64,000 nucleotides of DNA, taken from NCBI RefSeq assembly GCF_024298965.1, contig NZ_CP085193.1, positions 3,410,001-3,474,000 on the forward strand. Reading direction: 5' to 3'. This DNA comes from Streptomyces rapamycinicus NRRL 5491. Its GTDB lineage: Bacteria; Actinomycetota; Actinomycetes; Streptomycetales; Streptomycetaceae. This document shows, piece by piece, positions 10,124 to 60,250 of this stretch; the first letter of the stretch is position 1; the number at the start of each line of letters is the position of its first letter. The notes under the pieces were generated by a model. It had not been told where the DNA came from. It did not search any database and worked only from the letters and a program-made list of their open reading frames with translations. A program made the translations under genes and the position numbers.

Positions 10124-10131
10124 GCATCTCA

Positions 10132-14654: not shown

Positions 14655-14680
14655 CGCGCGTAGCGCGCCGGGCGCTGAGG

Positions 14681-14775: not shown

Positions 14776-14786
14776 CGGCTTTCGTC

Positions 14787-14803
14787 TCGCGCCTTCGGCG
14801 CGA
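14787..14803. terminator. UUCG-loop hairpin
   Basis: TCGCGCCTTCGGCGCGA folds into a tight GC stem closed by a C(UUCG)G loop downstream of the LuxR-type gene and its repeats. The rest of 14804-15044 holds no gene I can support. Confidence 0.5.
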
Positions 14804-15044
14804 TTGAGCAGCGGGGCAGGAGGCGGGAGCGCGGCCCCGTCGCCGGGCACCGGGTCGGCGGGGGCGGGCGCCGGTGGCGGCTTCCGTGCCCTGGCGGTCA
14901 AGGCCCCTCCGGACCGCGGACCGGTGGATCCCAGGGCGGCTCTCCGGGTGCCCCTCGAAAAAACACTTGATCTGGAGCAACTATCGCGTCAAGCAGCCCG
15001 CCGCGACCCCTAGGGCGCACCACGGTCATATAGGGCGATATCCT

Positions 15045-15060
15045 GCACTGAGGTCAGTGC
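15045..15060. promoter_or_regulatory. Palindrome upstream of the CorA gene
   Basis: GCACTGAGGTCAGTGC has 7-bp perfect arms around GG and ends 26 bp before the CorA-type start codon. It could be an operator or a small 5'-leader hairpin. No known consensus is recognised. Confidence 0.4.
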
Positions 15061-15086
15061 TCGCGACAGGAAGGTGAGGACCCTCT

Positions 15087-16265: not shown

Positions 16266-16413
16266 CGGCGTAACACCTCTCCGGTCGGCCCGGCGGTTCT
16301 AGGGAAACCCTCGATGAACCGCTGATTCAGCCGTTTTCCGTAGCCCCTCCATGCCGTTTGTGCTTCGATGCCGTGCGGCACGGCACCGGCGGGCGAGCGA
16401 CGGGAGTGGGCGT

Positions 16414-17304: not shown

Positions 17305-17314
17305 CCGCGGGGCG

Positions 17315-19003: not shown

Positions 19004-19036
19004 GTGCGCACTCCAGGGGGGCGGCAGGACCAAGGT

Positions 19037-19063
19037 CGGTTTCTGACTCTCACTCAGAAACCG
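19037..19063. promoter_or_regulatory. Inverted repeat upstream of the GH6 gene
   Basis: CGGTTTCTGA and TCAGAAACCG form 10-bp perfect arms separated by 7 bp, ending 34 bp before the GH6 start. It could be an operator or a leader stem-loop. It is not the TGGGAGCGCTCCCA CebR-type cellulase operator. Confidence 0.5.
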
Positions 19064-19080
19064 GCACCCGGCAAATGCAC

Positions 19081-19106
19081 CCCCCGCCAGATGGCGGAGG
19101 GTTTTT
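19081..19106 (+). terminator. Canonical hairpin plus T-tract
   Basis: CCGCC-AGAT-GGCGG, extended by CCC/GGG across a bulged A, is followed by TTTTT at 19102-19106. The orientation is rightward. No rightward gene lies between here and 17304, so it may end antisense transcription through the GH6 gene. Confidence 0.5.
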
Positions 19107-19159
19107 CCCGCTCAGGAGTGGCCTTATGTCAGACGATCCTTCTGTGATCTGATGCGATT

Positions 19160-20311: not shown

Positions 20312-20387
20312 GGTGATCAGCTCCTCGGACGGCCATGTACAGGCCGCCTATATTCGCGTCAACGCGCCGGGCCCGCGAAATCTGCCC

Positions 20388-30877: not shown

Positions 30878-33800
30878 ATGCACGACGACCGACCACTGGT
30901 GGAGGGGCGCCTGGACCGCGCGCTGCGCCAGTTCATCAGGCCCGCCCAGTACCCGGCCCGGGTGCCGCTCACCCTCTCCGCGTGGCGCACCCCCGGTGAG
31001 CCGGTGCCGGTCGCGGAGGCGCTGGCGGGCACCTACGAGCCGTTCACCACCGGCACGGACTGGGGCAGTCCGTGGTCCACCTGGTGGTTCCGGCTGGAGG
31101 GCGCGGTGCCCGAGGGCTGGGCCGGGCGGCGGGTGGAGGCCGTCATCGACCCGGGCTTCACCGACGACGCCCCGGGGTTCCAGGCCGAGGGGCTGGTGTA
31201 CGACGCGGAGGGCGTGCCGATCAAGGGCATCCATCCGCGCAACCGCCACATCCCCGTAGCCGCCCCCGCGGCCGGTGGCGAGCCCGTACGGCTGCTGCTG
31301 GAGGCCGCCGCCAACCCGTCCGTACTGCGCGACGGCTTCGTTCCGACCCGGCTCGGCGATGTGCTGACCGCCGGGGACGAGCCGCTGTACCGTTTCGCCT
31401 CGGCCGAGCTGGCCGTCCTCGACGAAACCGTCTGGCATCTGGTCCTGGACATCGAGGTGCTCTCGGAGCTGATGCACGAGCTGCCGGAGGACCGGCCGCG
31501 CCGCCATGAGATCCTGCGCGCCCTGGAGAACGCGCTGGACGCGCTCGACCTCCATGACGTCCCCGGCACCGCGGCCGCCGCCCGCGCCGAGCTGACCGAC
31601 GCGCTCGGTCGTCCCGCGCACTCCAGCGCGCACCGGGTCTCGGCGGCCGGACACGCCCATATCGACTCGGCGTGGCTGTGGCCGCTGCGCGAGACGGTGC
31701 GCAAGGCGTCCCGCACCTTCGCCAATGTCACCGCGCTCGCGGGCGAGTACCCGGAGCTGGTCTTCGCCTGCTCACAGGCGCAGCAGTACGCCTGGGTCAA
31801 GGAGCACCAGCCGCATATCTGGGAGCGGATCAAGAAGGCGGTGGCGGACGGCAACTGGGCGCCGGTGGGCTCGATGTGGGTCGAGTCGGACGCCAATATG
31901 CCCGGCGGTGAGGCGCTGGCCCGGCAGATCGTGCACGGCAAGCGGTTCTTCCTGGAGGAGCTGGGGGTGGACACCGAGGAGATCTGGCTGCCGGACTCCT
32001 TCGGCTACACGGCCGCCTTCCCGCAGCTCGCCAAGTTGGCGGGGGTGCGGTGGTTCCTCACCCAGAAGCTGTCGTGGAACCAGGCCAACAAGATGCCGCA
32101 CCACACCTTCTGGTGGGAGGGCATCGACGGCACCCGGGTCTTCACCCACTTCCCGCCGGTGGACACCTACAACGCCCGGTTCAGCGCCGCCGAACTCGCC
32201 CACGCCGAGAAGAACTTCGCCGACAAGGGGCTGGCCACGCGCTCGCTGGTGCCCTTCGGCTACGGCGACGGCGGTGGCGGCCCGACCCGCGAGATGCTGG
32301 AGAAGGCGCGCCGGCTCGGCTCCCTGGAGGGCTCGCCGACCGTCGAGATCCAGCCACCTTCGGCGTTCTTCACCGAGGCCGAGCGGGAGTACGGGGCCAA
32401 GGCGCCGGTGTGGTCGGGCGAACTGTATCTGGAGCTGCACCGGGCCACGTACACCACCCAGGCCAAGACCAAGCAGGGCAACCGGCGCGGCGAGCATCTG
32501 CTGCGGGAGGCCGAGCTGTGGGCCACGGCCGCCGCGCTGCACACGCCCGGCTACGCCTATCCGTACGACGAGCTGGACCGGATCTGGAAAACGGTGCTGC
32601 TGCACCAGTTCCACGACATCCTGCCCGGCTCGTCGATCGCCTGGGTGCACCGCGAGGCGCGGGACACCTACGAGATGGTGTTCGCCGAGCTGGAGGAGAT
32701 CATCGCGGGGGCGGTGGCCGCGCTGGGCGGCGACGGGCCCGCCGTGCTCAACGCCTCGCCGTACGAGCGCGAGGAGATCGCCGTCCTGGACGCGCGGACG
32801 GCGGCCGCCCTGCCGTCCGGGGCCCCGGTCCAGCCGCTGGGCGAGGGCCGTACGGCGGTCGCGGTGCGGGTCGCCGGGCTGGGCGCGGCACCCCTGGGGA
32901 CCGCCCCGCAGGCACCCGCCGCCGCCAGCGGCGCACCCCATGGGGCACCGCCGGTGACCGCCCTGAGCGACGGCCAGACCATCGTCCTGGACAACGACCG
33001 GCTGCGGGTGACCATCGACGCCGAGGGGCTGCTCACCTCGGTGCTGGACCTGGACGCGAGCCGTGAGGTGCTGGCCCCCGGCGCCCGCGGCAACCTCCTC
33101 CAGCTCCACCCCGACCACCCCAACCACTGGGACGCCTGGGACATCGACCGGCACTACCTCCGCAGCCACACCGATCTGACCGACGCCGAATCCGTGGAGC
33201 TGATCGAGTCCGGTCCGCTGCGCGCCACGGTCCGGGTCATACGGTCCTTCGGCGCCTCCCGCATCACCCAGGAGCTGACGCTGGCCGCGGGCAACCGCCG
33301 CCTCGACATCGCCACGGAGGTGGACTGGCAGGAGTCGGAGAAGGTCCTCAAGGCGGCGTTCCCGCTGGACATCCACGCCAAGGTGTCCACCTCGGAGATC
33401 CAGTTCGGCCATGTGGACCGCGCCACCCACACCAACACCAGCTGGGACGCTGCCCGGTTCGAGATCTGCGCCCACCGCTGGCTGCGGGTCGCCGAACCGG
33501 GGTACGGGGCGGCGGTGCTCAACGACTCCACGTACGGCCACGATGTGACCCGTACGGCGCACGACGGGGGCGCGGGCACGGACCCGGACACGGGCGGGGG
33601 CGCGGACACGGGCGGGGACGCGGGCGAGGTGCTGGGCACCACCGTGCGGCTGACCCTGCTGCGCGCCCCGCACAGCCCCGACCCGGAGACCGACCTGGGC
33701 GTCCACCGCTTCCGCTACGCCCTGCTGCCGGGCGCGGGCGTCGCCGAGGCGGTCGCGGAGGGGCTCGCCCTCAACCTGCCGCTGCGCACCCTCCCCGCCG

Positions 33801-34084
33801 GACCGGCCGAGCGGGCGCCGCTGGTGTCGGTGGACAACCCCGCGATCACGGTCGAGTCGGTCAAGCTCGCGGAGGACCGCAGCGGCGATGTGGTGGTGCG
33901 GCTGTACGAGTCCCAGGGCGGCCGGGCGGCGGGCACGCTGGTCACCGGCTTCCCGGTGCTCGGGGCCGAGGTGACGGACCTGCTGGAGCGCCCGCTGCAC
34001 GAGGCGGCCACGGGCCCGGGCGGGCTGACCCTGGCACTGCGCCCGCATCAGATCCTCACGCTGCGGTTGCGGCCGGTGAGGTGA
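30878..34084 (+). CDS. Alpha-mannosidase (GH38)
   Basis: The 1068-residue protein has the GH38 layout. After an N-terminal beta domain, GHAHIDSAWLWPLRET gives the zinc-binding His/Asp, and WLPDSFGYTAAFPQLAK contains the expected nucleophile Asp373. A helical domain and a large C-terminal beta region follow. No signal peptide is seen, so it should be cytosolic and hydrolyse alpha-mannosides taken up from outside or from turnover. A Gly/Asp-rich loop (AHDGGAGTDPDTGGGADTGG) near residue 890 is an insertion. The ATG follows GAGGAG, with a GTG one codon upstream. Two GAGTGATCC direct repeats (30832-30852) lie in the upstream region. The fucosidase at 2.4 kb is the only other glycan-trimming gene of this kind nearby. 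Confidence 0.93.
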   Translation: MHDDRPLVEGRLDRALRQFIRPAQYPARVPLTLSAWRTPGEPVPVAEALAGTYEPFTTGTDWGSPWSTWWFRLEGAVPEGWAGRRVEAVIDPGFTDDAPGFQAEGLVYDAEGVPIKGIHPRNRHIPVAAPAAGGEPVRLLLEAAANPSVLRDGFVPTRLGDVLTAGDEPLYRFASAELAVLDETVWHLVLDIEVLSELMHELPEDRPRRHEILRALENALDALDLHDVPGTAAAARAELTDALGRPAHSSAHRVSAAGHAHIDSAWLWPLRETVRKASRTFANVTALAGEYPELVFACSQAQQYAWVKEHQPHIWERIKKAVADGNWAPVGSMWVESDANMPGGEALARQIVHGKRFFLEELGVDTEEIWLPDSFGYTAAFPQLAKLAGVRWFLTQKLSWNQANKMPHHTFWWEGIDGTRVFTHFPPVDTYNARFSAAELAHAEKNFADKGLATRSLVPFGYGDGGGGPTREMLEKARRLGSLEGSPTVEIQPPSAFFTEAEREYGAKAPVWSGELYLELHRATYTTQAKTKQGNRRGEHLLREAELWATAAALHTPGYAYPYDELDRIWKTVLLHQFHDILPGSSIAWVHREARDTYEMVFAELEEIIAGAVAALGGDGPAVLNASPYEREEIAVLDARTAAALPSGAPVQPLGEGRTAVAVRVAGLGAAPLGTAPQAPAAASGAPHGAPPVTALSDGQTIVLDNDRLRVTIDAEGLLTSVLDLDASREVLAPGARGNLLQLHPDHPNHWDAWDIDRHYLRSHTDLTDAESVELIESGPLRATVRVIRSFGASRITQELTLAAGNRRLDIATEVDWQESEKVLKAAFPLDIHAKVSTSEIQFGHVDRATHTNTSWDAARFEICAHRWLRVAEPGYGAAVLNDSTYGHDVTRTAHDGGAGTDPDTGGGADTGGDAGEVLGTTVRLTLLRAPHSPDPETDLGVHRFRYALLPGAGVAEAVAEGLALNLPLRTLPAGPAERAPLVSVDNPAITVESVKLAEDRSGDVVVRLYESQGGRAAGTLVTGFPVLGAEVTDLLERPLHEAATGPGGLTLALRPHQILTLRLRPVR

Positions 34085-34102
34085 GTGGCTGAGGCCTGAC
34101 GG

Positions 34103-34987
34103 CTACACGACGGGCGGTCGTCCGGAGCGAGTCAGCTCGACGACCGTCCGCCAGCTCATGGGTGCCCGCGTGCCGTGGCCGCCGCGCAGCCCTTCGCGTA
34201 GCCCGCTCAGGGAAGCGCGGAGGGCCGCGCGGTCGCGGAACCGCCACAGGGTCAGGGCGAGCCAGGTGGTGAGGTTGAGGGGAATGAGAACCCGGGGGAG
34301 GTTCCGCCGGGCGAGCCAGACGCGGTTACGGGCGTTGAGTCGGTAAAAGGTGGCATGCCTGGCCGGGTTGGTAGCCGGATGGTGAACGGTCACGGCGGGC
34401 AGGTAGCGGCCGGTGTAGCCGCGGTTCCACAGCCGCCAGGCCAGATCGATGCCTTCGTGGAAGAGGAAGAAGTGACCGGGCCATCCCCCGGCTGCCTTGA
34501 AGGCGGAGCGGCGGATGAGCACGACACCTTCGGCCATGACGGTCACGGTGCCTGCCCGAGTGGGGTCGGAGGCCCGCAGACGCGGCACCCAGCGGCGCTG
34601 CGTGACACCGCTGTCGGGGTCGGTGATACGTGGCTGTACGTAGGCGAGCCGGGCGTCGTTGTCGAGTTCGGCGGCGAGCTTGGCCAGCGCCTCGGTGGAC
34701 GGGAGGACCGCGTCGTTGTCGAAGAAGAACAGGTAGTCGCACTCGTCGGTGACGGCGGCGGCGCCGACGTTGCGCCCCTCGGGGATACCGACGTTCTCGG
34801 GCAGTTCGACGGTGCGCACGTCGGCGGGGACCTGGGCAGGGCGGCAGCCGTTGCCGACGACCACCACGTCGAGATCGACGCCCTGCTGAGCCAGCAGGGA
34901 GGCCATGGCCCGAGGGAACTCCTCGGGCCGGTCGTTCATGGTCAGCACCACCGCGCCGACCTTGGGGCGCGGGGCGCCAGCGGTCAC
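34103..34987 (-). CDS. Family 2 glycosyltransferase
   Basis: The 294-residue protein is a GT-A fold transferase: VGAVVLTMNDRPEEFPRAM, VVVVGNGCRPA, LPENVGIPEGRNVGAAAV and the metal site YLFFFDNDAVL (DND in place of DxD). The acceptor region GHFFLFHEGIDLAWRLWNRGY has the usual ED-like motif shifted to EGID. The C-terminus (LIPLNLTTWLALTLWRF) may touch the membrane. It is the last gene of a leftward accessory operon and starts with GTG. It would transfer a nucleotide-activated sugar to a product of this cluster or to a cell-surface acceptor. The identity of donor and acceptor cannot be read from sequence. Confidence 0.85.
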   Translation of the reverse strand: MTAGAPRPKVGAVVLTMNDRPEEFPRAMASLLAQQGVDLDVVVVGNGCRPAQVPADVRTVELPENVGIPEGRNVGAAAVTDECDYLFFFDNDAVLPSTEALAKLAAELDNDARLAYVQPRITDPDSGVTQRRWVPRLRASDPTRAGTVTVMAEGVVLIRRSAFKAAGGWPGHFFLFHEGIDLAWRLWNRGYTGRYLPAVTVHHPATNPARHATFYRLNARNRVWLARRNLPRVLIPLNLTTWLALTLWRFRDRAALRASLSGLREGLRGGHGTRAPMSWRTVVELTRSGRPPVV

Positions 34988-35064
34988 AGAAGGGTCCTCA
35001 CTGCCTATGAGCCACCCCGCGTTCGGGTGGTCGTCATCGAGTCGTCACTGTCTGCTCGCATAGC

Positions 35065-35868
35065 CTACTGGCCCCGGTGGGGTGCCGTGGACGCAGCGAG
35101 CAGGGCACTGAAGGCGGCGGGGAGAGCGGCGCGGAGGGCCCGTTGAGTGGTCTGAGTGTCGTGGGGGCGCCGGTTGACGAGCGTGTCGGCGACGGCGAAG
35201 ACAGCCGCTGCGTGGACCGCGCGGTACGCGGCGACGGCGAAGACGGCGGCGGCTTCCATGTCGGCGGTAAGCACCCCGGAGGCACCGTATTGGGCGACTT
35301 CGGCTTCCGTCTCCCGGTAGGGAGCGTCGGTGGTCCATGTGGGTCCGCTGCGGGCCGGGACCCGGGTGGCGCGGATGGTGCGAACCAGGTGGTCGGTGAG
35401 ATCCGGCGAGGGCCGGATGGAGGCTGTCGGAGGGAGGTAGTGCCGGGACACGCCCTCGTCGCGGAGGGCTTCCCGGCAGACCACGAGAGTCCCCGGGAGC
35501 AGGTCGGGACTGAGCGCGGCAGCGGTCCCGACGGTGATGAAGCGGGTGGCGCCGAGCGTGATGAGTTGTTCGAGGACCAGAGCGGCAGCCGGGGCGCCAA
35601 CGCCGAAACCGCCACAGAGCCCGAACGCGTGGCCGTGGTGGTCGAACATGCGAAGGTCGCCGCGAATCCACTCGTTGAGCAGGCGTGGGCGGTAGCACCT
35701 GTCGGCGTACTCCATGACATGGGCCTGGTAGACGATGACGATGCCGGCAAAGTGTTTGAGCGTGGCGCCGGGGTGCCGGGCCCGCACTCGGGCGGCGTGC
35801 TCGGCCGGATCCGGCACGGCCGGAAGCTCGTGCTTACCGGGGTGGAGAGGGAAAGCTGTCGGGCTCAC
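35065..35868 (-). CDS. Nucleoside phosphorylase/nucleosidase family enzyme
   Basis: The 267-residue protein belongs to the PNP/UDP phosphorylase family. An FGVGAPAAALVLEQLITLGATRFITVGTAAAL stretch (glycine-rich GxG and the GTA phosphate loop) is followed by GTLVVCREALRDEG. LTADMEAAAVFAVAAYR carries the Met-Glu that contacts ribose. Family enzymes split nucleosides to base plus ribose 1-phosphate, or hydrolyse them. In this operon, next to an RpiB-type isomerase and an aminotransferase, it points to nucleoside- or ribose-derived chemistry, but that is inference. Its GTG start overlaps the stop of the 93-residue gene by 4 bp. A repeated HAAAVFAVA segment near residue 215 suggests a small internal duplication. 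Confidence 0.85.
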   Translation of the reverse strand: MSPTAFPLHPGKHELPAVPDPAEHAARVRARHPGATLKHFAGIVIVYQAHVMEYADRCYRPRLLNEWIRGDLRMFDHHGHAFGLCGGFGVGAPAAALVLEQLITLGATRFITVGTAAALSPDLLPGTLVVCREALRDEGVSRHYLPPTASIRPSPDLTDHLVRTIRATRVPARSGPTWTTDAPYRETEAEVAQYGASGVLTADMEAAAVFAVAAYRAVHAAAVFAVADTLVNRRPHDTQTTQRALRAALPAAFSALLAASTAPHRGQ

Positions 35869-36146
35869 TGGGCTTCCCTGGTCGTGAGGACGTTGGTGAG
35901 CAGCTGTTCGGCGTGGCGGTCGACGTGGTCGAGAATGTGCCAGGGGAGCACGGCGTCGTCCATGTGCCGCAGATGCCGGTCGTAGTCGAGGCCGTGGCGG
36001 GTCATGGCCTCGGCGAGCTGGGCTTTGGTGAGGGTCTTCAGGTCAGTGCCTGAGTCGTAGAGGTCTTCGAGGACGTGACCGACGCGGCGGTCCCCACGCG
36101 AGCAGACGACTTCCAGGCGCATGCGGCTGGTCTCGCCGTACACCAC
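35865..36146 (-). CDS. 93-residue protein of unknown function
   Basis: I do not recognise this protein. It is translationally coupled to the phosphorylase downstream (4-bp overlap) and begins 6 bp after the radical SAM stop, so it is firmly part of the operon. It is predicted helical. The centre DLKTLTKAQLAEAMTRHGLD is followed by a histidine-rich stretch, RHLRHMDDAVLPWHILDHVD, which could bind a metal. A GTG at 36146 or an ATG eight codons later may be the start. No signal peptide or membrane segment is present. It could be a small partner of the radical SAM enzyme or a metal-dependent enzyme, neither of which can be tested by reading. Confidence 0.7.
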   Translation of the reverse strand: MVYGETSRMRLEVVCSRGDRRVGHVLEDLYDSGTDLKTLTKAQLAEAMTRHGLDYDRHLRHMDDAVLPWHILDHVDRHAEQLLTNVLTTREAQ

Positions 36147-36152
36147 ACGGTA

Positions 36153-37664
36153 TTACCGCTCGAAGTCCTCGTTCCCGACCAGACTGCGCAGTCGGTCGCT
36201 GATCTGATCGCCGTATGCCTGCACCACGTCAGGGTCAGCCATGCGCAGACGCTGGGTCGGCGTGCCGGGCTTGGGCATGAACTGGTGCAGCTTGATGATC
36301 ACGCTGCCGTCCGGGCGGCCGAGGAGCCGACGAATGCGATGGGCGTAATCGGCAATAGCGAGCCGGTCGTCTTCGCGTTCGCCAGGAGCCCCGATGATGA
36401 AGTACAGCATGACCGTATTGATGTTCCGGTTGGCGCCACACAGCTCGATGGCCTTGTCGACGCGTTCGGGTGTCTGCGTCTTGCCGTAGAGGGCCACAAG
36501 GTCGGGGGCGGCCCACTCGGGTGCGATGGTGATGATGCCGCGCGCTTGGGAGAGGTTCAACTCGGTGAACAAGTGTCCGAAGTCGCCGAGTTCGGCCACG
36601 GCGTTCAGATAGTCGGAGCTGATCTCATCGGCCCGGATCGAGCCGATGATCGTGGTGACCTTGTCCCCCTCGGCGGCGGCGCGGTCGGCGTAGGCGCGGA
36701 TGTGCTCCAGCAATTCACGGCGGTGCTTGTACTGGGTAAAGGTCGGCGCGCTGATGATGATGGTTCGGACCTTGAGCTGTTCCAGGTGGTCGATGTAGTC
36801 GGTGAGCATGCCGAGCGGGGCCTGCCGGAACGGGGGAATGCCGAGGTTGCAGAACGCGCAGCTGTGTCGGCAGCCGACAACCGGATGTATACCTGCGGCG
36901 GTGCCGTCGGTGATCGGGTAGGTGAAGTGCGCATCATGCAGCTCCGCGAGAGTGAGGTACTGGGCTTGCACGTGTCCCGGGATTGCCCGTGTCCTGGAGG
37001 TGATGCCGCTGATGCCGCCACCAGGCAGGAATGTGGGCTCGTACAGGGACGGCACATACAGGCCAGGGACGCGGGCGAGCTGCTCCAGCAGATGTGCCCG
37101 CTCAGTCGGCTCGCTGTCATGGGCGTGGACGATGCGCAGCAGTTTGGGCAAGGAACGCTCGGCTTCGCCAAGTGCGATGACATCGACGTAGTCGGCCATC
37201 GGCTCAGGGTTCGCCAGGCCCATGTTCCCGCCGACGACGAGGGGATGCACACCGGACTTCCGCTCCACAGCACGGCGTGGGATCCCTGCCAGGTCCAGTA
37301 GGCGCAGGGCACTGTGGAGATCTCCGGAGTTGACCATGGACAGGCCCACCACATCGGCTTCGCTGACCGGCAGCGGGGATTCGACGCTGCGGTAAGGCTC
37401 GCCATCGGATGTGGTGAGCCGGTTCCCGTCATGGACGAGGCAGTCGTACTGGAGGGCGCGCTCGGCCACAGCGGGGATACCCGGGCTGCGGTTGACCAGG
37501 TCGTACAGGCCCATCGGTCCGCCGCACATCAGGCTGTAGGCGTGGCTGAAGGGGAAGAGGAACACCATCCGCAACAGCTCGTTCGGGTTCTTGGACGGGT
37601 ACGGGCCGGAAAGTTGCGTTTCCCGCTCGTGGATGGCGTCGATCTCCTTGCTCAGTAGTGTCAT
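36153..37664 (-). CDS. B12-binding-type radical SAM enzyme
   Basis: The 503-residue protein has an N-terminal region like B12-binding radical SAM proteins: MVFLFPFSHAYSLMCGGPMG, ADVVGLSMVNSGDLHSAL, HPLVVGGNMGLANPEPM and DVIALGEAERSLPKLL. A classical radical SAM core has CRHSCAFC (CxxxCxxC) near residue 260, then ELNLSQARGIITIAPE and NTVMLYFIIGAPGE. The DxHxxG cobalamin motif is not evident, so cobalamin use is uncertain. Such enzymes carry out radical methylations, rearrangements or C-C bond chemistry. It is the third gene of the leftward cluster, 12 bp downstream of the aminotransferase. This is the most chemically distinctive member of the operon. Confidence 0.87.
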   Translation of the reverse strand: MTLLSKEIDAIHERETQLSGPYPSKNPNELLRMVFLFPFSHAYSLMCGGPMGLYDLVNRSPGIPAVAERALQYDCLVHDGNRLTTSDGEPYRSVESPLPVSEADVVGLSMVNSGDLHSALRLLDLAGIPRRAVERKSGVHPLVVGGNMGLANPEPMADYVDVIALGEAERSLPKLLRIVHAHDSEPTERAHLLEQLARVPGLYVPSLYEPTFLPGGGISGITSRTRAIPGHVQAQYLTLAELHDAHFTYPITDGTAAGIHPVVGCRHSCAFCNLGIPPFRQAPLGMLTDYIDHLEQLKVRTIIISAPTFTQYKHRRELLEHIRAYADRAAAEGDKVTTIIGSIRADEISSDYLNAVAELGDFGHLFTELNLSQARGIITIAPEWAAPDLVALYGKTQTPERVDKAIELCGANRNINTVMLYFIIGAPGEREDDRLAIADYAHRIRRLLGRPDGSVIIKLHQFMPKPGTPTQRLRMADPDVVQAYGDQISDRLRSLVGNEDFER

Positions 37665-37676
37665 GGAGATCTCCTC

Positions 37677-38885
37677 TCAGTGGGATGTGCAGTGGGTGCG
37701 GGCGGTGTGCACGGTCGCCTGGCGGATGGCGTCGCAGATGGCTGTCTCGTCGGCTTCGCTCATGCGGGGGTGCAAGCAGGGGCACAGCAGCCGGGCCGTG
37801 AGCCGTTCCGCACGGGGGCAGCGATGTGCGCCGATGTGGTCACGGATGAGGCGGTGCCCGAGGTAGGTCGGCGGGTCGCTGATGATGCTGCCGACCCCGT
37901 ATCGGTCGGCCAGGGTATTCATGAACTGGTCGCGGCCCTCACCGGCCCAGGCGACGGGCACGAGCAGGTTGTGCCGGTAGTACAGGTGCATGCGTCCGTT
38001 GAAGGTCGGGGGCAGCGTCAGCTCCTCGACGTCGGCCAACTGCCGGGTGCGCTGGTGGGCACGGCGGATACGCGCGTGGTTCATCTCGTCAAGACGGGAG
38101 AGCTGGACCAGGCCCACTGCGGCCTGGGCCTTGGTCATCATCTGGTTGGTGCCCCAGTGCTCCCGACCGCCGTAGGTGCGGAGCCAGCGCAGCCGATCTG
38201 CCAGCGCGGAGTCGTTGGTGGTGACCATGCCGCCCTGCCCCAAGGTGGTCATCAGCTTCTTCGACTCGAAGCTGAAGACTGTGGCCCAGCCCTCGGCGCC
38301 CACGACGGCGCCTAACGGGGTACGGCCGCCACAGGCGCGCGCCGCATCCACGATCACGACCGGCGGCCCATGGACCGGGTGAGGATGCCGGTCGGCGAGA
38401 TCTAGAAAGGGCCGCAGGTCAGCAACGGCGCCGTTCCAGTGCGTGACCACGATCGCCCGCGTCCGCGATGTGATGACGCGTTCGGTATCGGCCGGGTCCA
38501 GGTTGAGAGTGATCGGATCCGGCTCGGCGAGGACCAGGTGCCCGCCCTGGCCAATGACAGCGATGTGCGGGCCGACGAAGTTGATCGCACAGGAGATCAC
38601 CTCATCCCCAGGCTCGAGGCCAAGGAAGTGCAAGTCCATCTCGAGCGCGGTACCGCCGGAGTTGAACGCCACGGCGTGGTCGGCGCCGGTATGAGCGCTG
38701 AAGGCGTCCTCGAAGCGCTGGGTGTACGGGGCGGATTTCCACCCCATGCGCCAGTCGGCGGCATCGTCCAACGCGAACTCGACGGCCGTGCGCTCGGCGG
38801 CCGTATACCAACCGCCCATGGCCGGCTCGACTGGCCAGCGTAGGCCGGCAGTGGAACGGGGGACGGTGGTGGGATTGGTGGGCAT
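37677..38885 (-). CDS. DegT/DnrJ/EryC1/StrS aminotransferase
   Basis: The ATG at 38885 follows GGGAG and gives 402 residues. It is a PLP enzyme of the sugar aminotransferase family: HAVAFNSGGTALEMDLHFLG (cofactor phosphate site), PGDEVISCAINFVG, PVVIVDAARACGG (the pyridine-nitrogen Asp) and VFSFESKKLMTTLGQGGMVTT, with the Schiff-base lysine in SKKLM. Family enzymes aminate keto-sugars or cyclitols in antibiotic and surface-sugar pathways. A DegT enzyme beside an RpiB-like isomerase and a nucleoside phosphorylase suggests an aminated sugar or nucleoside. The specific substrate is unknown. Confidence 0.9.
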   Translation of the reverse strand: MPTNPTTVPRSTAGLRWPVEPAMGGWYTAAERTAVEFALDDAADWRMGWKSAPYTQRFEDAFSAHTGADHAVAFNSGGTALEMDLHFLGLEPGDEVISCAINFVGPHIAVIGQGGHLVLAEPDPITLNLDPADTERVITSRTRAIVVTHWNGAVADLRPFLDLADRHPHPVHGPPVVIVDAARACGGRTPLGAVVGAEGWATVFSFESKKLMTTLGQGGMVTTNDSALADRLRWLRTYGGREHWGTNQMMTKAQAAVGLVQLSRLDEMNHARIRRAHQRTRQLADVEELTLPPTFNGRMHLYYRHNLLVPVAWAGEGRDQFMNTLADRYGVGSIISDPPTYLGHRLIRDHIGAHRCPRAERLTARLLCPCLHPRMSEADETAICDAIRQATVHTARTHCTSH

Positions 38886-38904
38886 TCGTTGCGTCTCCCG
38901 GTCG

Positions 38905-39399
38905 TCAGAGCAGATGGCGGCGAGTGCGGTTCTCATACGCGGTGATTGCGTCGACCTTCGCGGCAGTCGTGGAGGTGGCCTCAAACCGGTAGGTCAGCCA
39001 TTCGGCCGCCAGTCGGCGCGCAGCTGCGAGGCCGATGACGCCCTGGCCGAGAGCGAGGATCTGGGCATTGTTGGACTCCACGGAGGCCCGCACGGAAAGT
39101 GAGTCATGGGCGGTGACAGCGCGAATGCCCGTGACCTTGTTTGCGGCGATGGCCATGCCGAGGCCGGTATGGCACACCAGGAGCGCCCGGTCGACAATGC
39201 CCTCGACCACCAGGCGCGCCGCCTCGCAGGCGATGACCGGGTAGGCGGCGGCGCCGGGGTGGTCCCCGCTGGTGTTGATGACAGAGGTAACGCGTGCGTT
39301 TTGGCGCAAGTCGTCGCGGAGGACGCTCATGTACTGTCGGCCGGCTCTGTCGGCTCCGATCGCCACACGGAGGCCGGGCGGCATGTTCCTATCACTCAT
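38905..39399 (-). CDS. RpiB/LacAB-type sugar-phosphate isomerase
   Basis: The 164-residue protein matches the RpiB fold: VAIGADRAGRQYMSVLRDDL at the N-terminus, DHPGAAAYPVIACEAARLV in the middle, ALLVCHTGLGMAIAANKVTGIRAV (in family members CGTGxGMSIAAN) and NNAQILALGQGVIG. The active-site Cys of CHTG is conserved, while the usual glycine after it is histidine. The ATG is preceded by an AGGAG-like box. It is the first gene of the leftward cluster, suggesting that an aldose-ketose interconversion of a phosphorylated pentose or hexose opens the pathway. A housekeeping ribose-5-phosphate isomerase would be expected elsewhere in the genome. Confidence 0.88.
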   Translation of the reverse strand: MSDRNMPPGLRVAIGADRAGRQYMSVLRDDLRQNARVTSVINTSGDHPGAAAYPVIACEAARLVVEGIVDRALLVCHTGLGMAIAANKVTGIRAVTAHDSLSVRASVESNNAQILALGQGVIGLAAARRLAAEWLTYRFEATSTTAAKVDAITAYENRTRRHLL

Positions 39400-39447
39400 G
39401 GGTTCTCCTGCGTCCGGGGTGTCGGGTGTAGCCGGTGTGAGCGCGAC

Positions 39448-39519
39448 GCGTCCGGCCGGATGCCCCTGACCTCACTCTCGGGGAAGCCGACTGACGTCCA
39501 GAGTCCGTCGGCCGGACGC
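39448..39519. promoter_or_regulatory. Long-spaced inverted repeat in the divergent control region
   Basis: GCGTCCGGCCG (39448-39458) and CGGCCGGACGC (39509-39519) are perfect 11-bp complements 50 bp apart, within the 325-bp gap (39400-39724) between the leftward operon and its divergent regulator. They may be paired operator sites that loop the promoter region, or a leader hairpin for the operon. The rest of the gap has no gene I can support. Confidence 0.5.
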
Positions 39520-39724
39520 GGCGCCGTCACATCAGAGTGATCCGCTCGCATTGCCGCAGGTAGTGAGAGGTGTCTGCCCTCCATGGGCGGTGCGGCCGCC
39601 TGCAGCGGGCGTCCAGCCCGCCCCCTACGGGGCGGTTTGATCGCGTGCCAAGGCAGGCAGGCAATCGTTGGACAGTACTGACGGCTTATCCGACGTCGCT
39701 CTGTGTCTGTGGGGGAGGAAAACG

Positions 39725-41302
39725 GTGGGATCTGAGGCGAGGCAGAAGTCGAAAGCGGTCCACGACGTCTCTTGCGGGAAGGCACTCCGCGAACGGGCCC
39801 TGGGCCGGGCGGGCTCCCCCGACCCCGTGCCGCCGACCCTGATGACGACGATCTCTGCGGAGATCGAGGCCCACTGTGGCCACCGCCTCCTCAAGTGCCG
39901 CCGCCTGGCGAAGGGATGGACAGTCGCCCGAGCTGTCGCCGCCGCCCACCAACTCGTCGAAACCAGAGGGCTCGCCAAAGTCGGTTTGTCCGAGCGTTCA
40001 TGGAAGGACTGGGAGGCGGGTGTCCTGCCCAGCCCCGACTACCAAGACCTGCTGTGCCGTCTCTTCGCCACGAGCCCCGTCCAATTGGGCTTCGCCCGCG
40101 ACTACTCACCGACCGCAGCGGATGGGACCAGCCCCCTTGGGAGCGGAAACGGCCTGGATGGAACACTGCTCGAAGGTAAAGCGGCGAGCACGAGCGCGGG
40201 CTCGCGGACCCTAATGGAGGTGGAGCCAACGAAGCGTCGCGACGCGGTGAAACTTGCCGGACTGGCTATGGCCGCCCCGGTTGCCGCAGCACAGATTCTG
40301 GAGCAGGCCGCCACCGAAGCCATGGAGTTCACCCGGCAGGCGGAGGCCACCTCTCTCGGCTCGGGAACCCTGGACCACCTCGACCTCGCGATCACCGAGT
40401 TCAACCGCGCCTACTCGATCAAGCCGCCCCGGGCCGTCTTCGACGCGGTGATGGACTACCGGCGAAAGGTCGACCGCCTGATGAAGGCCCCCCACACCCA
40501 CCGTCAGGAACGCGAACTGCTGACGTTCGCCGGGTGGCTGTCCGAGCTCTTAGCATGGCTCGCCCACGATCTAGGAGACGCCCGCACCGGTCTGGCTTTC
40601 GCCACCGACGCGTTGGTCCACGGCCAGGAGGCCGGACACGGTCAGCTGTGCGCATGGGCAATGGATGCCGCCGCCTCCATCAACCTGTACGAGCGCCATC
40701 CCCACAAGGCCCGCCTCGCGGTCGCCAAGGGCCTCGCTGAGGCCTCGGCCAGACATCCGCTGACAGTGCGGCTGCATGCCCAAGCCGCTCGCGCCGCCGC
40801 AGCCGACGGCGACGCAGAAGGCTTCACCACCGCCTTCCATGCTGCCGAAGACGCCCATCGGTCCCTACCGACCTGCGCACCTCGCCGATTCGGCATGGAC
40901 GTGATGCCACTGGCGGATTACGCGCTCACCTCGTATCCGGCGACCTCCTTCATCTGGCTCGGCCAAGCCGAGGAGGCCCGCCAACACGCCGAACGCGCAC
41001 TGGCTACCTACAAGGCGGCCCCGAAGGCGTCCCGGTCTCCAAGTCGGGAGGCCATCGCCCGTATCGACTTGGCCATGGCCCATGCCCTGTCCGGCGCCCC
41101 CGAGGACGCCGTCGCCCTCGGGCACCAGGCCCTCGACTCCACCCGCGTGGTCGATTCCGTCCGGCACCGGGCCAGCGACCTCACCTCCTTCCTAACCCGC
41201 CGCTTTCCCCGCCGACCCGAGGTCGAGGGCCTGCGCGACCGCCTCGCCGCCCTCGACGCGAACGCTCGCCGAGCTCTGCCAGCAGCAGGCCCAGATGCAT
41301 GA
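39725..41302 (+). CDS. HTH/TPR regulator with a TTA codon
   Basis: The GTG at 39725 lies 6 bp after GGGGGAGG and gives 525 residues. The N-terminal part (about residues 40-110) resembles a lambda-repressor-type HTH: LKCRRLAKGWTVARAVAAAHQ, then LSERSWKDWEAGVLPSPDYQ. A C-terminal half of helical repeats (about 200-500) looks like the TPR scaffold of NsdA/Rgg-like Streptomyces regulators. A TTA leucine codon occurs at codon 276 (40550-40552), so translation should depend on the bldA tRNA, a mark of genes tied to development and antibiotic production. It is divergent from the six-gene operon and is its likely regulator (inference). Confidence 0.82.
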   Translation: MGSEARQKSKAVHDVSCGKALRERALGRAGSPDPVPPTLMTTISAEIEAHCGHRLLKCRRLAKGWTVARAVAAAHQLVETRGLAKVGLSERSWKDWEAGVLPSPDYQDLLCRLFATSPVQLGFARDYSPTAADGTSPLGSGNGLDGTLLEGKAASTSAGSRTLMEVEPTKRRDAVKLAGLAMAAPVAAAQILEQAATEAMEFTRQAEATSLGSGTLDHLDLAITEFNRAYSIKPPRAVFDAVMDYRRKVDRLMKAPHTHRQERELLTFAGWLSELLAWLAHDLGDARTGLAFATDALVHGQEAGHGQLCAWAMDAAASINLYERHPHKARLAVAKGLAEASARHPLTVRLHAQAARAAAADGDAEGFTTAFHAAEDAHRSLPTCAPRRFGMDVMPLADYALTSYPATSFIWLGQAEEARQHAERALATYKAAPKASRSPSREAIARIDLAMAHALSGAPEDAVALGHQALDSTRVVDSVRHRASDLTSFLTRRFPRRPEVEGLRDRLAALDANARRALPAAGPDA

Positions 41303-41682
41303 ACACGGAGGAGACCCAGGTGACCGACGACCAGCAGCCCGTCGAGCACTCCCTCACCATCCGCAAGCCCTACTACGACCTGATCGCCAGCGGCAATAAG
41401 ACCATCGAGGTCCGCGTCGGCTACCCCAAGATCCGCAAGATCACCACAGGGGACACCCTGCGGATCACCTGCGGCGACGACACCCTGATCACCCGCGTCA
41501 CCGCCGTACGGCAGTACGAGTCGTTCTCCGCGATGCTGGACGCCGAGGACCCCGGCGCGATCGGCGGACCGGACATGGCCCACGACGAACTCATGGCCGC
41601 GATCCGCGACATCTATCCCCGCGAGAAGGAAGCACTCGGCGTCTTCGCCCTCCATCTCGCCCTCGTGGAAACCAGCGGCTGA
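41299..41682 (+). CDS. ASCH-domain protein
   Basis: This 127-residue protein carries the ASCH fold: HSLTIRKPYYDLIASGNKTIEVRVGYPKIRKI, the GDTLRITCGDDTLITRVTAVRQYES barrel, and the FALHLALV end. ASCH domains resemble PUA domains and bind RNA or small ligands. Some hydrolyse N4-acetylcytidine. It overlaps the stop of the HTH/TPR regulator by 4 bp (ATGA), so the two are co-translated. Its presence beside nucleoside-type enzymes is suggestive. Whether it protects RNA, processes a modified nucleoside or acts as a regulator's partner cannot be told. Confidence 0.85.
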   Translation: MNTEETQVTDDQQPVEHSLTIRKPYYDLIASGNKTIEVRVGYPKIRKITTGDTLRITCGDDTLITRVTAVRQYESFSAMLDAEDPGAIGGPDMAHDELMAAIRDIYPREKEALGVFALHLALVETSG

Positions 41683-41725
41683 GCCGCGCACCGCTGGGCC
41701 CGAGGGCACGGGGCCTCGTCGGACG

Positions 41726-43468
41726 TCAGGGGCGCGGTACGTTCCGGAGGTTTGAGCGGGCCATCTGGAGCATCTTGCCGACGCCCCCGTCCAGCACCAT
41801 CCTGCTGGCCGAGAGCGCGAAGCCGGTCACCATCTCCGCCTTGATCTTGGGCGGGATGGACAGCGCGTTGGGGTCCGTGACGATGTCCAGCAGCGCGGGC
41901 CCCTTGTGGTGCAGTGCGGCGCGCAGCGCGGACCGCAGGCGCTTGGGCTTCTCCACCCGCTCGCCGTACACCCCGGCGGCGCGGGCGATCTGCGCGAAGT
42001 CGGGGTTGTGGTAGCCCGTGCCGTGCGCGGGCAGGCCCGAGACCAGCATCTCCAGCTCGACCATGCCCAGCGCGGAGTTGTTGAACAGGATCACCTTCAC
42101 CGGCAGGTCGTACTGGACGAGGGTGAGGAAGTCGCCCATCAGCATGGTGAATCCGCCGTCGCCGGACATCGAGATCACCTGGCGGCGGCGGTCCATGAAC
42201 TGGGCGCCGATCGCCTGCGGCAGCGCGTTCGCCATCGAGCCGTGGGTGAAGGAGCCGATCATCCGGCGGCGGCCGTTGGGGGACAGATAGCGCGCGGCCC
42301 ATACGTTGCACATCCCGGTGTCCACGGTGAAGATCGCGTCATCGGCGGCCTCCTCGTCCAGCACCGACGCCACGAACTCCGGATGGATCGGAATGTGCTT
42401 GTCGACCCGGCGGGTGTACGCCTTGACCACGCCCTCCAGCGCGTCGGCGTGCTTCTTCAGCATGCGGTCGAGGAAGCGGCGGTCCGTCTTGGGGTGCACC
42501 TTCGGCGTCAGACAGCTCAGCGTCTCCCGGACGTCGCCCCAGACGGCGAGGTCCAGCTTGGAGCGGCGGCCGAGGTGTTCGGCGCGGACGTCCACCTGCA
42601 CGGTCCGCACATCGGAGGGCAGGAAGGCGCCGTACGGGAAGTCGGTGCCGAGCAGGATCAGCAGATCGCATTCGTGGGTGGCCTCGTACGCGGCGCCGTA
42701 GCCCAGCAGACCGCTCATCCCCACGTCATAGGGATTGTTGTATTGAATCCACTCCTTGCCGCGCAGGGCGTGCCCCACCGGCGCCTTCAGCAGTTCGGCG
42801 AAGGCCATCACCTCCTCGTGCGCCCCGGCGCAGCCCCGGCCGCAGAAGAGCGTCACCCGCTCCGCCTCGTTGACCATGCGGGCGAACCGGTCGATCTCCG
42901 CGTCGCCCGGGCGCACGGTGGGCCGGGACGTCACCAGGGCGTGCTCCTCGGCGCGCTCGGGCGCCGGGCGGGCGGCGATGTCACCGGGGAGTGCCACCAC
43001 GCTCACCCCGCTGCGGCCGATCGCGTGCTGCACGGCGGTCTGCAGGACGCGGGGCATCTGCTGGGGGTGGGAGATCAGCTCGCAGTAGTGGCTGCACTCC
43101 TGGAACAGCCGCTCGGGATGGGTCTCCTGGAAGTAGCTGGTGCCGATCTCGCTGCTGGGGATGTGCGAGGCGAGCGCGATGACCGGGGCCATGGAGCGGT
43201 GGGCGTCGTAGAGCCCGTTGATCAGATGGACGTGCCCGGGGCCGCAGGAGCCCGCGCAGGCGGCGAGGGACCCGGTGAGCTGCGCCTCGGCACCGGCGGC
43301 GAAGGCGGCGGTCTCCTCGTGCCGCACCTGGATCCAGTCGATCGCGGCGTTCCGGCGGACCGCGTCCACCACGGGGTTGAGGCTGTCCCCGACCACGCCG
43401 TACAGCCGCCGCACACCGGCGCGCACCAGGATGTCCACGTATTGCTCCGCCACGGTCTGCTTGGCCAT
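41726..43468 (-). CDS. poxB: Pyruvate dehydrogenase (quinone)/pyruvate oxidase
   Basis: The 580-residue protein is a thiamine-diphosphate enzyme of the POX/acetolactate-synthase group. QVRHEETAAFAAGAEAQLTG contains the activating glutamate. GHVHLINGLYDAHR and CGRGCAGAHEE lie in the FAD domain region, and the ThDP motif begins MSGDGGFTMLMGDF and ends FNNSALGMVE. Membrane-associated PoxB converts pyruvate to acetate and CO2, passing electrons to quinone through FAD. The final AEMVTGFALSASRMVLDGG could be the amphipathic membrane anchor. Acetolactate synthase is less likely from the pattern. It is a stand-alone gene. Confidence 0.9.
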   Translation of the reverse strand: MAKQTVAEQYVDILVRAGVRRLYGVVGDSLNPVVDAVRRNAAIDWIQVRHEETAAFAAGAEAQLTGSLAACAGSCGPGHVHLINGLYDAHRSMAPVIALASHIPSSEIGTSYFQETHPERLFQECSHYCELISHPQQMPRVLQTAVQHAIGRSGVSVVALPGDIAARPAPERAEEHALVTSRPTVRPGDAEIDRFARMVNEAERVTLFCGRGCAGAHEEVMAFAELLKAPVGHALRGKEWIQYNNPYDVGMSGLLGYGAAYEATHECDLLILLGTDFPYGAFLPSDVRTVQVDVRAEHLGRRSKLDLAVWGDVRETLSCLTPKVHPKTDRRFLDRMLKKHADALEGVVKAYTRRVDKHIPIHPEFVASVLDEEAADDAIFTVDTGMCNVWAARYLSPNGRRRMIGSFTHGSMANALPQAIGAQFMDRRRQVISMSGDGGFTMLMGDFLTLVQYDLPVKVILFNNSALGMVELEMLVSGLPAHGTGYHNPDFAQIARAAGVYGERVEKPKRLRSALRAALHHKGPALLDIVTDPNALSIPPKIKAEMVTGFALSASRMVLDGGVGKMLQMARSNLRNVPRP

Positions 43469-49148: not shown

Positions 49149-52100
49149 TTGTCCACAGTCGCCGATTTGCCATGGCATCACGATGTCCATGATTCGGTAG
49201 CGGTCATCGGTTTCTCTTGTCGTTTACCAGGAGCCCGGACGCCCGAGGAATTCTGGCGTCTGCTCAGCGACGGCGCGGACGCGGTCACTTCCGTACCGGA
49301 AGATCGATGGACTCCGCGGCAATCCGACGGCGGGTCCGGGGCCCGACCCGAAGCCGAAGCTGGGATCGAATTCGGCGCCTTCCTCGACGCGGTGGACCAC
49401 TTCGACGCCGGCTTCTTCGGCATATCGCCGCGCGAGGCCGCCGCCATGGACCCCCAGCAGCGGCTGATGCTCGAACTGGGCTGGGAATCCCTGGAGGACG
49501 CGGGCCTCACACCGGCCCGGCTCGCCCAGGGGCGGACCGGGGTGTTCGTCGGCGCCGTCAACGACGACTACGCCACGCTGCTGCGGCGCCACGGCGGCGA
49601 CTCCGCGGTCACCCATCACACCCTGACCGGCCTGCAGCGCGGCATGATCGCCAACCGGCTCTCCTATCTGCTGGGCACCCGCGGCCCCAGCATGGTGGTG
49701 GACTCCGGCCAGTCGTCCTCGCTGGTCGCCGTGCACACCGCCTGCCAGAGCCTGCGCAACGGCGAATGCGACACCGCGCTCGCCGGCGGCGTCCACCTCA
49801 ACCTCGCGTACGACGGCGCGCTGAGCGCCGCACGGTTCGGCGGGCTCTCCCCCGACGGCACGTGCTACACCTTCGACTCCCGGGCCAACGGCTTCGTCCG
49901 CGGCGAGGGCGGCGGTCTGGTGCTGCTCAAACCCCTCGCCCGCGCGCTCGCCGACGGCGACCGGATCCACGGGGTGCTGCGCGGCGGCGCGGTCAACAAC
50001 GACGGCGGCGGTGACAGTCTCACCACCCCCAGCCGGACCGCCCAGGCGGAGGTGTTGCGCCGCGCGTACGCCGTGGCCGGGGTCGCCCCCGACGAGGTGC
50101 AGTACGTCGAACTGCACGGCACCGGCACGCCCGTCGGCGACCCCATCGAGGCGGCGGCGCTGGCCGAGGCGATCGGCGCGGCGCGGACGAAGGACCGGCC
50201 GCTGCTGGTGGGGTCCGCCAAGACGAACGTGGGCCATCTGGAAGGGGCCGCGGGGATCACCGGCCTGATCAAGGTCCTGCTCGCCCTGAAGGCGGCGCAC
50301 CTCCCGCCCAGCCTCAACTTCCGCTCGCCCAACCTCGCGATTCCGCTGGAGGAGTGGAATCTGCGGGTGCAGACCGAGTTGTCGGCGTGGCCGCGCCCGG
50401 ATGCGCCGCTGATCGCCGGGGTGTCCTCCTTCGGCGTCGGCGGGACCAACGCCCATGTCGTCGTGGAGCGGGCTCCAGCGGTCTCACTCGCCGAGGGTGC
50501 GGCCGAAGGCGTCGCGGAGGCCTGGGGTGGTGACGTACTGCCGTGGGTGATCTCGGGCCGGACGCCGGACGGGGTGCGGGCGCAGGCGGCCCGGTTGCGG
50601 TCGTTCGCGGCGGGCGGCTCCGCGGACGGATCGGCAGGTGGTTCCGCGGACCATTCGGCGGACGGCGACGTCTCCCCCGCCGACATCGGATGGTCGCTCG
50701 CCGAGCACCGGACGGCCCTGGAGCACCGTGCCGTGGTGGTGGCCGCGGACCGCGACGGGTTCCTGGCCGGGCTGGACGCGCTGGCCTCCGGTGAGCCGTC
50801 CGCCCATGTGGTCAATGGGGCCGCCGGCGAGTCGGCCGCGGGTCCGGTGTTCGTCTTTCCGGGGCAGGGCTCGCAGTGGGCGGGCATGGCCGCCGAACTG
50901 CTCGACGCCTCGCCCGTGTTCGCCGAATCCATCGGCCGCTGCGCCCGGGCCCTGGCCCCGCACACCGACTGGGACCTCCTCGGCGTACTGCGGGACACCG
51001 AGGACGGCGCCGCGCTGGACCGCGCGGAGGTGCTGCAGCCCGCGCTCTGGGCCGTGATGGTCTCGCTGGCGCGGGTGTGGCGTTCGCTCGGCGTCGTCCC
51101 GTCGGCCGTCGTGGGCCACTCGCAGGGTGAGATCGCGGCCGCGTGCGTGGCCGGAGCGCTGTCGCTGGAGGACGGTGCCCGGCTGATCGCCGTACGCAGC
51201 CGGATCGCGGGGGCCCTGATCGGCCGGGGCGGTCTCGCGTCCATCGGCGCGTCGGAGGAGCGGGCGGCCGAGCTGCTCGCGGACCGGGCCGACGTATGGA
51301 TCGCCGCGGTCAACGGACCGGGCGCGACGGTGGTCGGGGGCAGCCCGGAGGGGCTGGCCGAGGTCACGGCCAGGGCGGCGGCCGCCGGGCTGCGCCACCG
51401 CCGGGTGGCCACCGCGTACGCCTCGCACACCCCTCATGTCGAGGCGATCCGCGAGGAGTTCCTGCGGCTCGCGGCGCCGGTCGCCCCGCGCGCCGGGGAC
51501 GTGCCGATGTACTCGACCGTCACCACCGCCCCCATCGCGGGCGAGGCGCTGGACGCCGAGTACTGGTACCGCAACCTCCGCGAACAGGTCCGCTTCCACG
51601 ACACCGTCCAGAACCTGATCGCGGACGGCAACTCCCTCTTCCTGGAGAGCAGTTCGCACCCGGTACTCATCACCGCCGTCCAGGACACGGGCGGTCTCGC
51701 CGTCGGCACCCTGCGCCGGGGCGAGGGCGGCACGCGGCGGGTGCTGCTCTCGCTGGCCGAGCTGTGGGTGCACGGGGCCGCCCCCGACTGGGGAAAGGTG
51801 TTCGCCGGGACCGGCGCCCGCCGGGCCGCGCTGCCCGGCCGTGTCTTCCAGCGGCGGCGCCACTGGTTCGACGCCGTGGCGTCTCCGGCGGCCACGGATA
51901 TCGCGCCGGGGGCCGCGAGCCCGGATGTGGTTCATCAGGTGCGGGCCCAGGCCGCGGCCGTCCTCGGGCATACGACGGTGGCCGAGCTCGACACCGGACG
52001 GACCTTCAAGGATCTCGGCTTCGACTCGATCTCGCTCAGCGATCTGTGCAACCGCGTCAACGCCGCGCTGGGCACCCGCCTCTCCCCCGCCGCGCTCTTC

Positions 52101-60167: not shown

Positions 60168-60250
60168 TCCCCCTCCGCCCGCCCCGCTGACCAGCCGGTC
60201 TGTCCGCCATACCCACCTCCCACCGCCGACTCTTCGCATGGAGCCCCGAC

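Follow-up and report, generated by a model that had tools for sequence, protein, structure and literature searches.

We analysed a 64,000-nt stretch of Streptomyces rapamycinicus NRRL 5491 (contig NZ_CP085193.1, positions 3,410,001 to 3,474,000; hereafter the window), in which an inserted block carries a leftward operon of five enzyme genes facing a divergent regulator and an ASCH-domain protein (Table 1). The operon encodes an RpiB-family isomerase, a DegT aminotransferase, a B12-type radical S-adenosylmethionine (SAM) enzyme, a nucleoside-phosphorylase-superfamily (NP-I) protein and a family 2 glycosyltransferase (GT2). With slightly less than even confidence, we propose that these genes form a horizontally acquired, self-contained small-molecule cluster, which would make an aminated, glycosylated, ribose-derived metabolite but in S. 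rapamycinicus itself is probably silent or impaired.

Table 1 Features of the inserted block (ORF, open reading frame; TPP, thiamine pyrophosphate).
Feature	Position in window	Strand	Remarks
Inserted block, 7,630 bp	34096..41725	.	Between alpha-mannosidase-like gene and TPP-enzyme gene (flank names by eye)
RpiB/LacAB-family sugar-phosphate isomerase	38905..39399	-	First gene of the operon; PF02502, 117 bits
DegT/DnrJ/EryC1/StrS aminotransferase	37677..38885	-	PF01041, 227 bits; sequence relatives in the PDB
B12-type radical SAM gene, interrupted here	35865..37664	-	Single protein of ~600 aa in relatives
Radical SAM ORF before the stop, 503 aa	36153-37664	-	PF04055 and PF19864
In-frame stop codon TAA, residue 504	36153..36155	-	Splits the radical SAM gene into 503-aa and 93-aa ORFs
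93-aa ORF, C-terminal helical domain of radical SAM enzyme	35865..36146	-	TIGR03960 positions 488-565
Nucleoside-phosphorylase-superfamily (NP-I) protein	35065..35868	-	PF01048; 4-bp overlap with preceding gene
Family 2 glycosyltransferase (GT2)	34103..34987	-	PF00535
Divergent NsdA-family TPR-type regulator	39668..41302	+	NF053720; start codon uncertain
ASCH-domain protein	41299..41682	+	PF04266; overlaps regulator gene

The ORFs, spacings and coordinates given in an earlier note on this DNA were confirmed, and the families it had named (RpiB, DegT, radical SAM, phosphorylase, GT2 and ASCH) all correspond to Pfam matches above cut-off: PF02502, PF01041, PF04055 with PF19864, PF01048, PF00535 and PF04266. 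Six of the eight block ORFs have such a match, the exceptions being the regulator and the 93-aa ORF; a Pfam search with the latter gave nothing.

The radical SAM protein scores 41.8 bits against PF04055 (cut-off 29.5), and its cysteines C265, C269 and C272, present in the window ORF, are invariant in all 50 aligned proteins. Its N-terminal region matches PF19864 with 101 bits (cut-off 29). Like members of the TIGR03960 family of B12-binding radical SAM proteins, it covers most of the model when its C-terminal piece is included; at 145.9 bits for a cut-off of 462.3 it stays below equivalog level, and we therefore place it in a separate, cluster-bound subfamily of the TIGR03960 kind. A sequence search of the PDB returned a single match (E 0.9). 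By fold, the neighbours of the modelled S. endocoffeicus homologue include MgmA, CysS, MiaB, AprD4, TsrM and OxsB; cobalamin enzymes (TsrM, TokK, OxsB) are among them, but so are MiaB and AprD4. We found no assigned reaction for this subfamily.

The NP-I protein has the fold of its family and the catalytic Glu and Asp, both retained in 29 of 29 distinct members (collapsed from 35 sequences, window included, some of them partial). The Arg at the phosphate site, common to all five PDB phosphorylases aligned and which we take to be Arg87 of E. coli purine nucleoside phosphorylase in number and role, is absent from all 29, with Thr in 26, Ser in two and Ala in one. Judged from these residues, the protein may be a nucleosidase; the family also has an invariant signature of its own. 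The RpiB protein clears the PF02502 cut-off of 24.7 by a wide margin; its match to TIGR00689 lies exactly at the cut-off (88.3 bits for 88.3), and two others fall under their equivalog cut-offs (TIGR02133, 149.4 vs 168.2; TIGR01120, 85.5 vs 138.65).

An interrupted radical SAM gene

Related loci were collected by a scan of 84,980 genomes, one per species, with two peptide patterns, which is not exhaustive. It gave 25 loci, 24 of them (L003-L026) 53-98% identical and one (L027) a distant match at 25%. The 27 related loci discussed below are these 24 and three plasmid loci (L028-L030); L027, for its 25% identity, and L031-L037 were left out.

Against TIGR03960 (605 positions), the radical SAM ORF of the window matches positions 30-480, and the match resumes in the 93-aa ORF; the two ORFs share a frame, with one TAA and two codons between them. 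All 27 related loci have both parts joined in an uninterrupted frame of about 600 aa (L018 is counted here, but the N-terminus of its gene lies beyond the contig end), and each of the 22 relatives that were aligned to the window protein has the C-terminal tail. The earlier note had listed six genes, one for a separate 93-residue protein; given the TIGR03960 continuation, the shared frame and the open frames elsewhere, that protein is rejected, and the core is five genes, one interrupted. An interrupted enzyme can thus leave a tail that passes for a new 93-residue gene.

The stop replaces residue 504 of 599. In S. endocoffeicus (L003), the enzyme encoded at this site is 98% identical over the first 503 residues and open over all 599, and beyond the stop just three more residues differ. 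This near-identity of the tail means that the interruption is young, or that the tail is still in use. In an AlphaFold2 model of the L003 protein (mean predicted local distance difference test score 92.5), the stop site coincides with a helix end; a short strand and then a helical C-terminal domain (residues 512-598) follow directly. A GTG located 6 nt downstream of the stop codon is a candidate re-initiation start, from which the 93-aa piece could possibly be translated. Should the two pieces not function jointly, this strain probably has a silent or impaired pathway, and it is probably the wrong one in which to seek the product.

A somewhat unlikely explanation, and the first to be weighed here, is that the block is a degenerating, functionless remnant in S. 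rapamycinicus, which would be compatible with any function elsewhere. It draws on the stop itself, placed in the central enzyme and found in none of the 27 related loci, and on the lengths of other homologues: among the 120 relatives listed of 164 matches, 106 measure 557-709 aa and 14 are shorter. The short ones include partial sequences as well as some ORFs of, for instance, 380, 388 and 466 aa on long contigs, which may be further broken copies. However, the other block genes are open and 91-96% identical to those of L003, and with three residue differences behind the stop, decay, if any, must be recent.

Distribution, variants and insertion of the block

Gene counts at the related loci rest on tblastn, because a crude gene caller missed or merged genes. 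The radical SAM and NP-I genes were found in all 27 loci, DegT in 26, RpiB in 22 and GT2 in 20. The one locus without DegT (L018) is cut by a contig end, and a DegT gene lies on another contig of the same genome. The order RpiB-DegT-radical SAM-NP-I is kept in 22 of the 27 loci (with one gene in between in L019), and 20 of these include GT2, which in S. clavuligerus sits on the far side of the divergent regulator.

The unit is rare but coherent. Among 392 Streptomyces genomes drawn evenly, eight (this one included) contain the radical SAM gene at E <= 1e-100, and the same eight contain DegT; in an order-wide draw, 7 of 293 genomes carry the radical SAM gene, all of them Streptomyces. The two samples overlap, and each includes this genome. 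Across 19 five-gene loci, pairwise distances of the other proteins follow those of the radical SAM enzyme, with correlations of 0.89 for RpiB, 0.89 for DegT, 0.92 for NP-I and 0.90 for GT2; none of 2000 permutations reached as high, although common descent of the host strains adds to these values. This set omits L006, whose match values equal those of L005, the loci without GT2 and/or RpiB (L016-L018, L020, L023, L026 and L030) and the short loci L031-L037.

The constant core consists of DegT, radical SAM and NP-I genes, accompanied in 26 of 27 loci by a sugar isomerase: RpiB in 22 and a xylose-isomerase-like protein alone in four, with neither seen in the truncated L018. These four loci, from Actinomadura (L020), S. 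natalensis (L023), Sphaerisporangium (L026) and a Streptosporangium plasmid (L030), lack both RpiB and GT2 and have the xylose-isomerase-like gene and a Gfo/Idh/MocA dehydrogenase gene beside DegT in place of RpiB, along with thymidylate-kinase-like genes; all except L023 also possess a PhyH-type dioxygenase and APH-like kinases. The isomerase-like and dehydrogenase genes of these RpiB-less loci, whose flanks are complete, suggest that a carbonyl-making step is needed before DegT. In L019, RpiB and GT2 occur together with additional isomerase-like and kinase-like genes.

Other variants add nucleotide-sugar genes, which fits the attachment of a sugar: L011-L015 and L024 have an extra epimerase and a hexapeptide transferase, while L016 and L017, devoid of GT2, have extra epimerases, a dehydrogenase and a second DegT. 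Two adjacent gene families of about 250 and 460 aa (L016:3599-5758, L017:3468-5604) are part of the latter variant; their L017 members gave no match in Pfam or NCBIfam, and the larger one no sequence match in the PDB.

Insertion of the whole 7.6-kb block, regulator and ASCH genes included, is well supported. In blastn, a large contig (C3) of a close relative (G055) matches the window at 92% up to position 34095 and resumes at 41726 (90%), leaving an empty site of 88 bp where the window has 7,630 bp. The divergence of the two parts is discordant, as expected of horizontal transfer: the TPP-enzyme neighbour is 96% identical between the two genomes, and the radical SAM protein of G055 is only 71% identical, its gene lying on another contig that corresponds to plasmid pSTRVI02 and is probably a plasmid itself. 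In three more distant genomes (G006, G021, G019) the two flank genes stand side by side; in G011, G023 and G024, which also have a close orthologue of the mannosidase, they are 1.9-2.8 kb apart. As the cluster is rare, its loss in relatives is less likely than insertion here.

The earlier note had suspected a conserved, transferred unit and a GC content less extreme than that of its surroundings. Both suspicions stand: the cluster recurs with varying flanks in distant Streptomyces and in other Actinomycetes, a close relative has the exact empty site just described, and the GC fraction at third codon positions is 0.79-0.91 within the block as against 0.95 in each flanking gene. The outcomes that would have refuted the note's idea, genes that fail to co-occur in other genomes or that are all close housekeeping orthologues, did not arise. 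No direct repeat of at least 12 nt was detected within about 500 bp around either insertion end, each end being searched alone; the left end has one imperfect inverted pair (14 nt) and the right end one 12-nt palindrome. Compared with each other over 100 and 120 bp, the ends have at most a 7-nt word in common, in direct or inverted orientation.

Several related clusters may adjoin integrative elements. Three gene families (10, 15 and 17), each present in 4-5 loci among L008, L010 and L012-L015, lie beside the cluster, downstream of it in L010 and L012-L015; by eye, they resemble a protein of replication-initiator type and a WhiB-like protein. On plasmid pSTRVI02 of S. violaceusniger, the cluster copy (L028) is set among other genes annotated as nucleotide-related (region 1607-20560): a nucleoside 2-deoxyribosyltransferase domain, HIT, NUDIX, RNA ligase and phosphotransferase. 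Behind GT2 in S. endocoffeicus lies another insertion, about 0.9 kb long (L003:13560-14810), in which parts of the GT2 tail, of the mannosidase gene end and, over 144 bp, of the TPP-enzyme gene are duplicated; an ORF of 123 aa was called behind GT2.

A proposed pathway and its alternatives

The chemical steps, their order, their regulation and the product are predicted here from enzyme families. The B12-type radical SAM enzyme would modify a nucleoside- or sugar-containing substrate, or add 5'-deoxyadenosyl to it, and the phosphorylase-like protein would cleave the N-glycosidic bond, setting free the (modified) ribose. The RpiB-family protein would then turn the aldose phosphate into a ketose, DegT would convert the ketone to an amine and GT2 would add a sugar, with the divergent NsdA-type regulator presumably in control of the pathway. 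We favour this route as the one that employs all five genes most economically; the enzyme families are likewise compatible with the aminated nucleoside- or sugar-derived metabolite imagined in the earlier note.

Closest in logic is the hopanoid side chain as told in passages of PMC12583986: the radical SAM enzyme HpnH adds 5'-deoxyadenosyl, the putative phosphorylase HpnG removes adenine and HpnO aminates, while HpnI glycosylates on another branch of the pathway. Radical SAM, phosphorylase-type, aminotransferase and glycosyltransferase functions thus meet in one pathway there as well. The proteins themselves differ. The window NP-I protein matches HpnG weakly (38.7 bits for a cut-off of 187.1) and is not its orthologue; the radical SAM enzyme is of another type than HpnH, and its four NCBIfam matches (E 0.01) include no model of that name. 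Furthermore, the block ORFs include no hopene cyclase, and the RpiB-like isomerase has no counterpart among the steps given in those passages of PMC12583986. Since the enzyme types are alike but not orthologous, we propose a similar logic applied to another substrate.

Two further systems share elements with the block. The aminoribose branch of liponucleoside antibiotics (LipL-LipO-LipP-LipM-LipN) also combines a nucleoside scaffold with an aminotransferase, a nucleoside phosphorylase and a glycosyltransferase, and the PhyH-type dioxygenase of variants L020, L026 and L030 is a further likeness. In contrast, the window block lacks both a dioxygenase and a sugar-1-phosphate nucleotidylyltransferase, and has a B12-type radical SAM enzyme and RpiB in addition. 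OxsB, from oxetanocin A biosynthesis, is a B12-dependent radical SAM enzyme that acts on a nucleotide; the identity is 19%, and the block has no gene resembling the phosphohydrolase OxsA. Clusters of the tunicamycin, angustmycin, puromycin, aristeromycin, allosamidin and gentamicin types were dropped on their known gene sets alone, which differ.

Several observations weigh against the proposed route. B12 binding is not proven, since PF02310 falls below its cut-off in the window protein (23 bits for 32.1), although 32 of the 120 relatives listed have that domain. The model of the NP-I protein has phosphorylases as nearest folds in all 50 rows listed, which argues against a nucleosidase, and as a phosphorylase it could run in the synthetic direction instead. 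The window RpiB lacks the His that, we assume from E. coli RpiB, opens the furanose ring, as do its closest solved relatives (3qd5 and 3sdw); a pentofuranose phosphate is therefore not an assured substrate. As 7 of the 27 loci do without GT2 and 5 without RpiB, the family can dispense with either. Beyond the core, no gene recurs in more than seven loci (by crude clustering), leaving no constant transporter or resistance gene. Lastly, the interruption of the radical SAM gene could be a sequencing error, and DegT copies elsewhere, split over two frames in L020 (15838-16979) and L024 (4443-5634) and bearing an in-frame stop in G369 (C1:4740408-4741643), may be damaged too or contain sequence errors.

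Nucleoside phosphorylases operate in both directions, which lends some credit to an assembly route that we nevertheless consider unlikely: RpiB and DegT would make an amino sugar phosphate, the phosphorylase would join a base to it, the radical SAM enzyme would methylate and GT2 glycosylate, to give an amino-nucleoside antibiotic. The nearness of the NP-I fold to true phosphorylases speaks for it, as do the thymidylate-kinase-like genes of L019, L020, L023, L026 and L030 and the APH-like genes of L020, L026 and L030. On the other hand, the Arg of the aligned phosphorylases is replaced in every NP-I member, and the recurring neighbour families, most of them without annotation, showed no recognisable base-modifying gene. 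Alternatively, and improbably, the NP-I protein would merely clear 5'-deoxyadenosine or S-adenosylhomocysteine, while RpiB, DegT, the radical SAM enzyme and GT2 act on a sugar to produce a C-methylated amino sugar or aminocyclitol. To our knowledge, clusters rarely carry their own clean-up enzyme, and the divergence of NP-I in step with the radical SAM enzyme, with its invariant signature, points rather to a dedicated substrate. That housekeeping orthologues lie here by chance is hardly credible: the genome does contain another TIGR03960-like gene (G000:C1:7841057-7842406, L002) and three more RpiB-like matches, but these lie elsewhere and are 30% and at most 55% identical (the latter at G000:C1:10201083-10201529, L039), and 384 of the 392 Streptomyces genomes are without the cluster version at E <= 1e-100.

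The cluster could represent an undescribed class of actinobacterial natural products, which at present appears rather unlikely to us. In this class, the radical SAM enzyme would remodel a nucleotide ribose or add adenosyl, a nucleosidase-like step would remove the base, and isomerase and transaminase would yield an amino sugar or polyol to be glycosylated. The use of a nucleotide as scaffold would then have arisen separately from the hopanoid and liponucleoside pathways, with plasmids and insertions as its means of spread. We found no description of the cluster or its gene combination in the open-licence PMC literature, which is not proof of absence. For S. clavuligerus, a term search of PMC5702194 gave no match to any of six terms, and in PMC6856088 the terms DegT, phosphorylase, 'radical S-adenosyl' and saccharide are absent, while nucleosides come up there in connection with pentostatin and tunicamycins. 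The cluster is small, found on plasmids and chromosomes, and uninterrupted in many named Streptomyces strains, S. atratus (L009) and S. inusitatus among them: expression of the five genes would bring the product and a new enzyme activity within reach.

Further features of the block and the window

TTA codons are associated with bldA-dependent secondary metabolism in Streptomyces. DegT has one (codon 191) and the regulator one or two (codons 7 and 295 of the longest ORF), depending on the start used, which fits such control. The DegT ORF is extendable to 38984, although most of the matches in relatives start from the codon at 38885. The regulator has sub-threshold TPR matches in Pfam and scores 141.1 bits against NF053720 (NsdA-family, cut-off 75); with 28.7 bits against the NsdA equivalog model (cut-off 830), it is not NsdA proper. 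GT2 is MftF-like, with a score far under the cut-off of the MftF model. The ASCH gene was rejected as a core member: among the loci searched, it is present only in the window and L003. No Rfam family was found in 33500-42500, and no consensus promoter or terminator in 39300-40000, where the scan covers Streptomyces promoters poorly.

Elsewhere in the window, region 49149-64000 has two plus-strand ORFs of great length, one of 3672 aa and another that the window end cuts off at 1250 aa; by eye, both are modular polyketide synthase-like and belong to a separate cluster. On the other side, region 4444-26415 contains genes that by eye resemble those of purine degradation: an amidohydrolase, urate oxidase, a transthyretin-like protein, parts of xanthine dehydrogenase and a PucR-like regulator.

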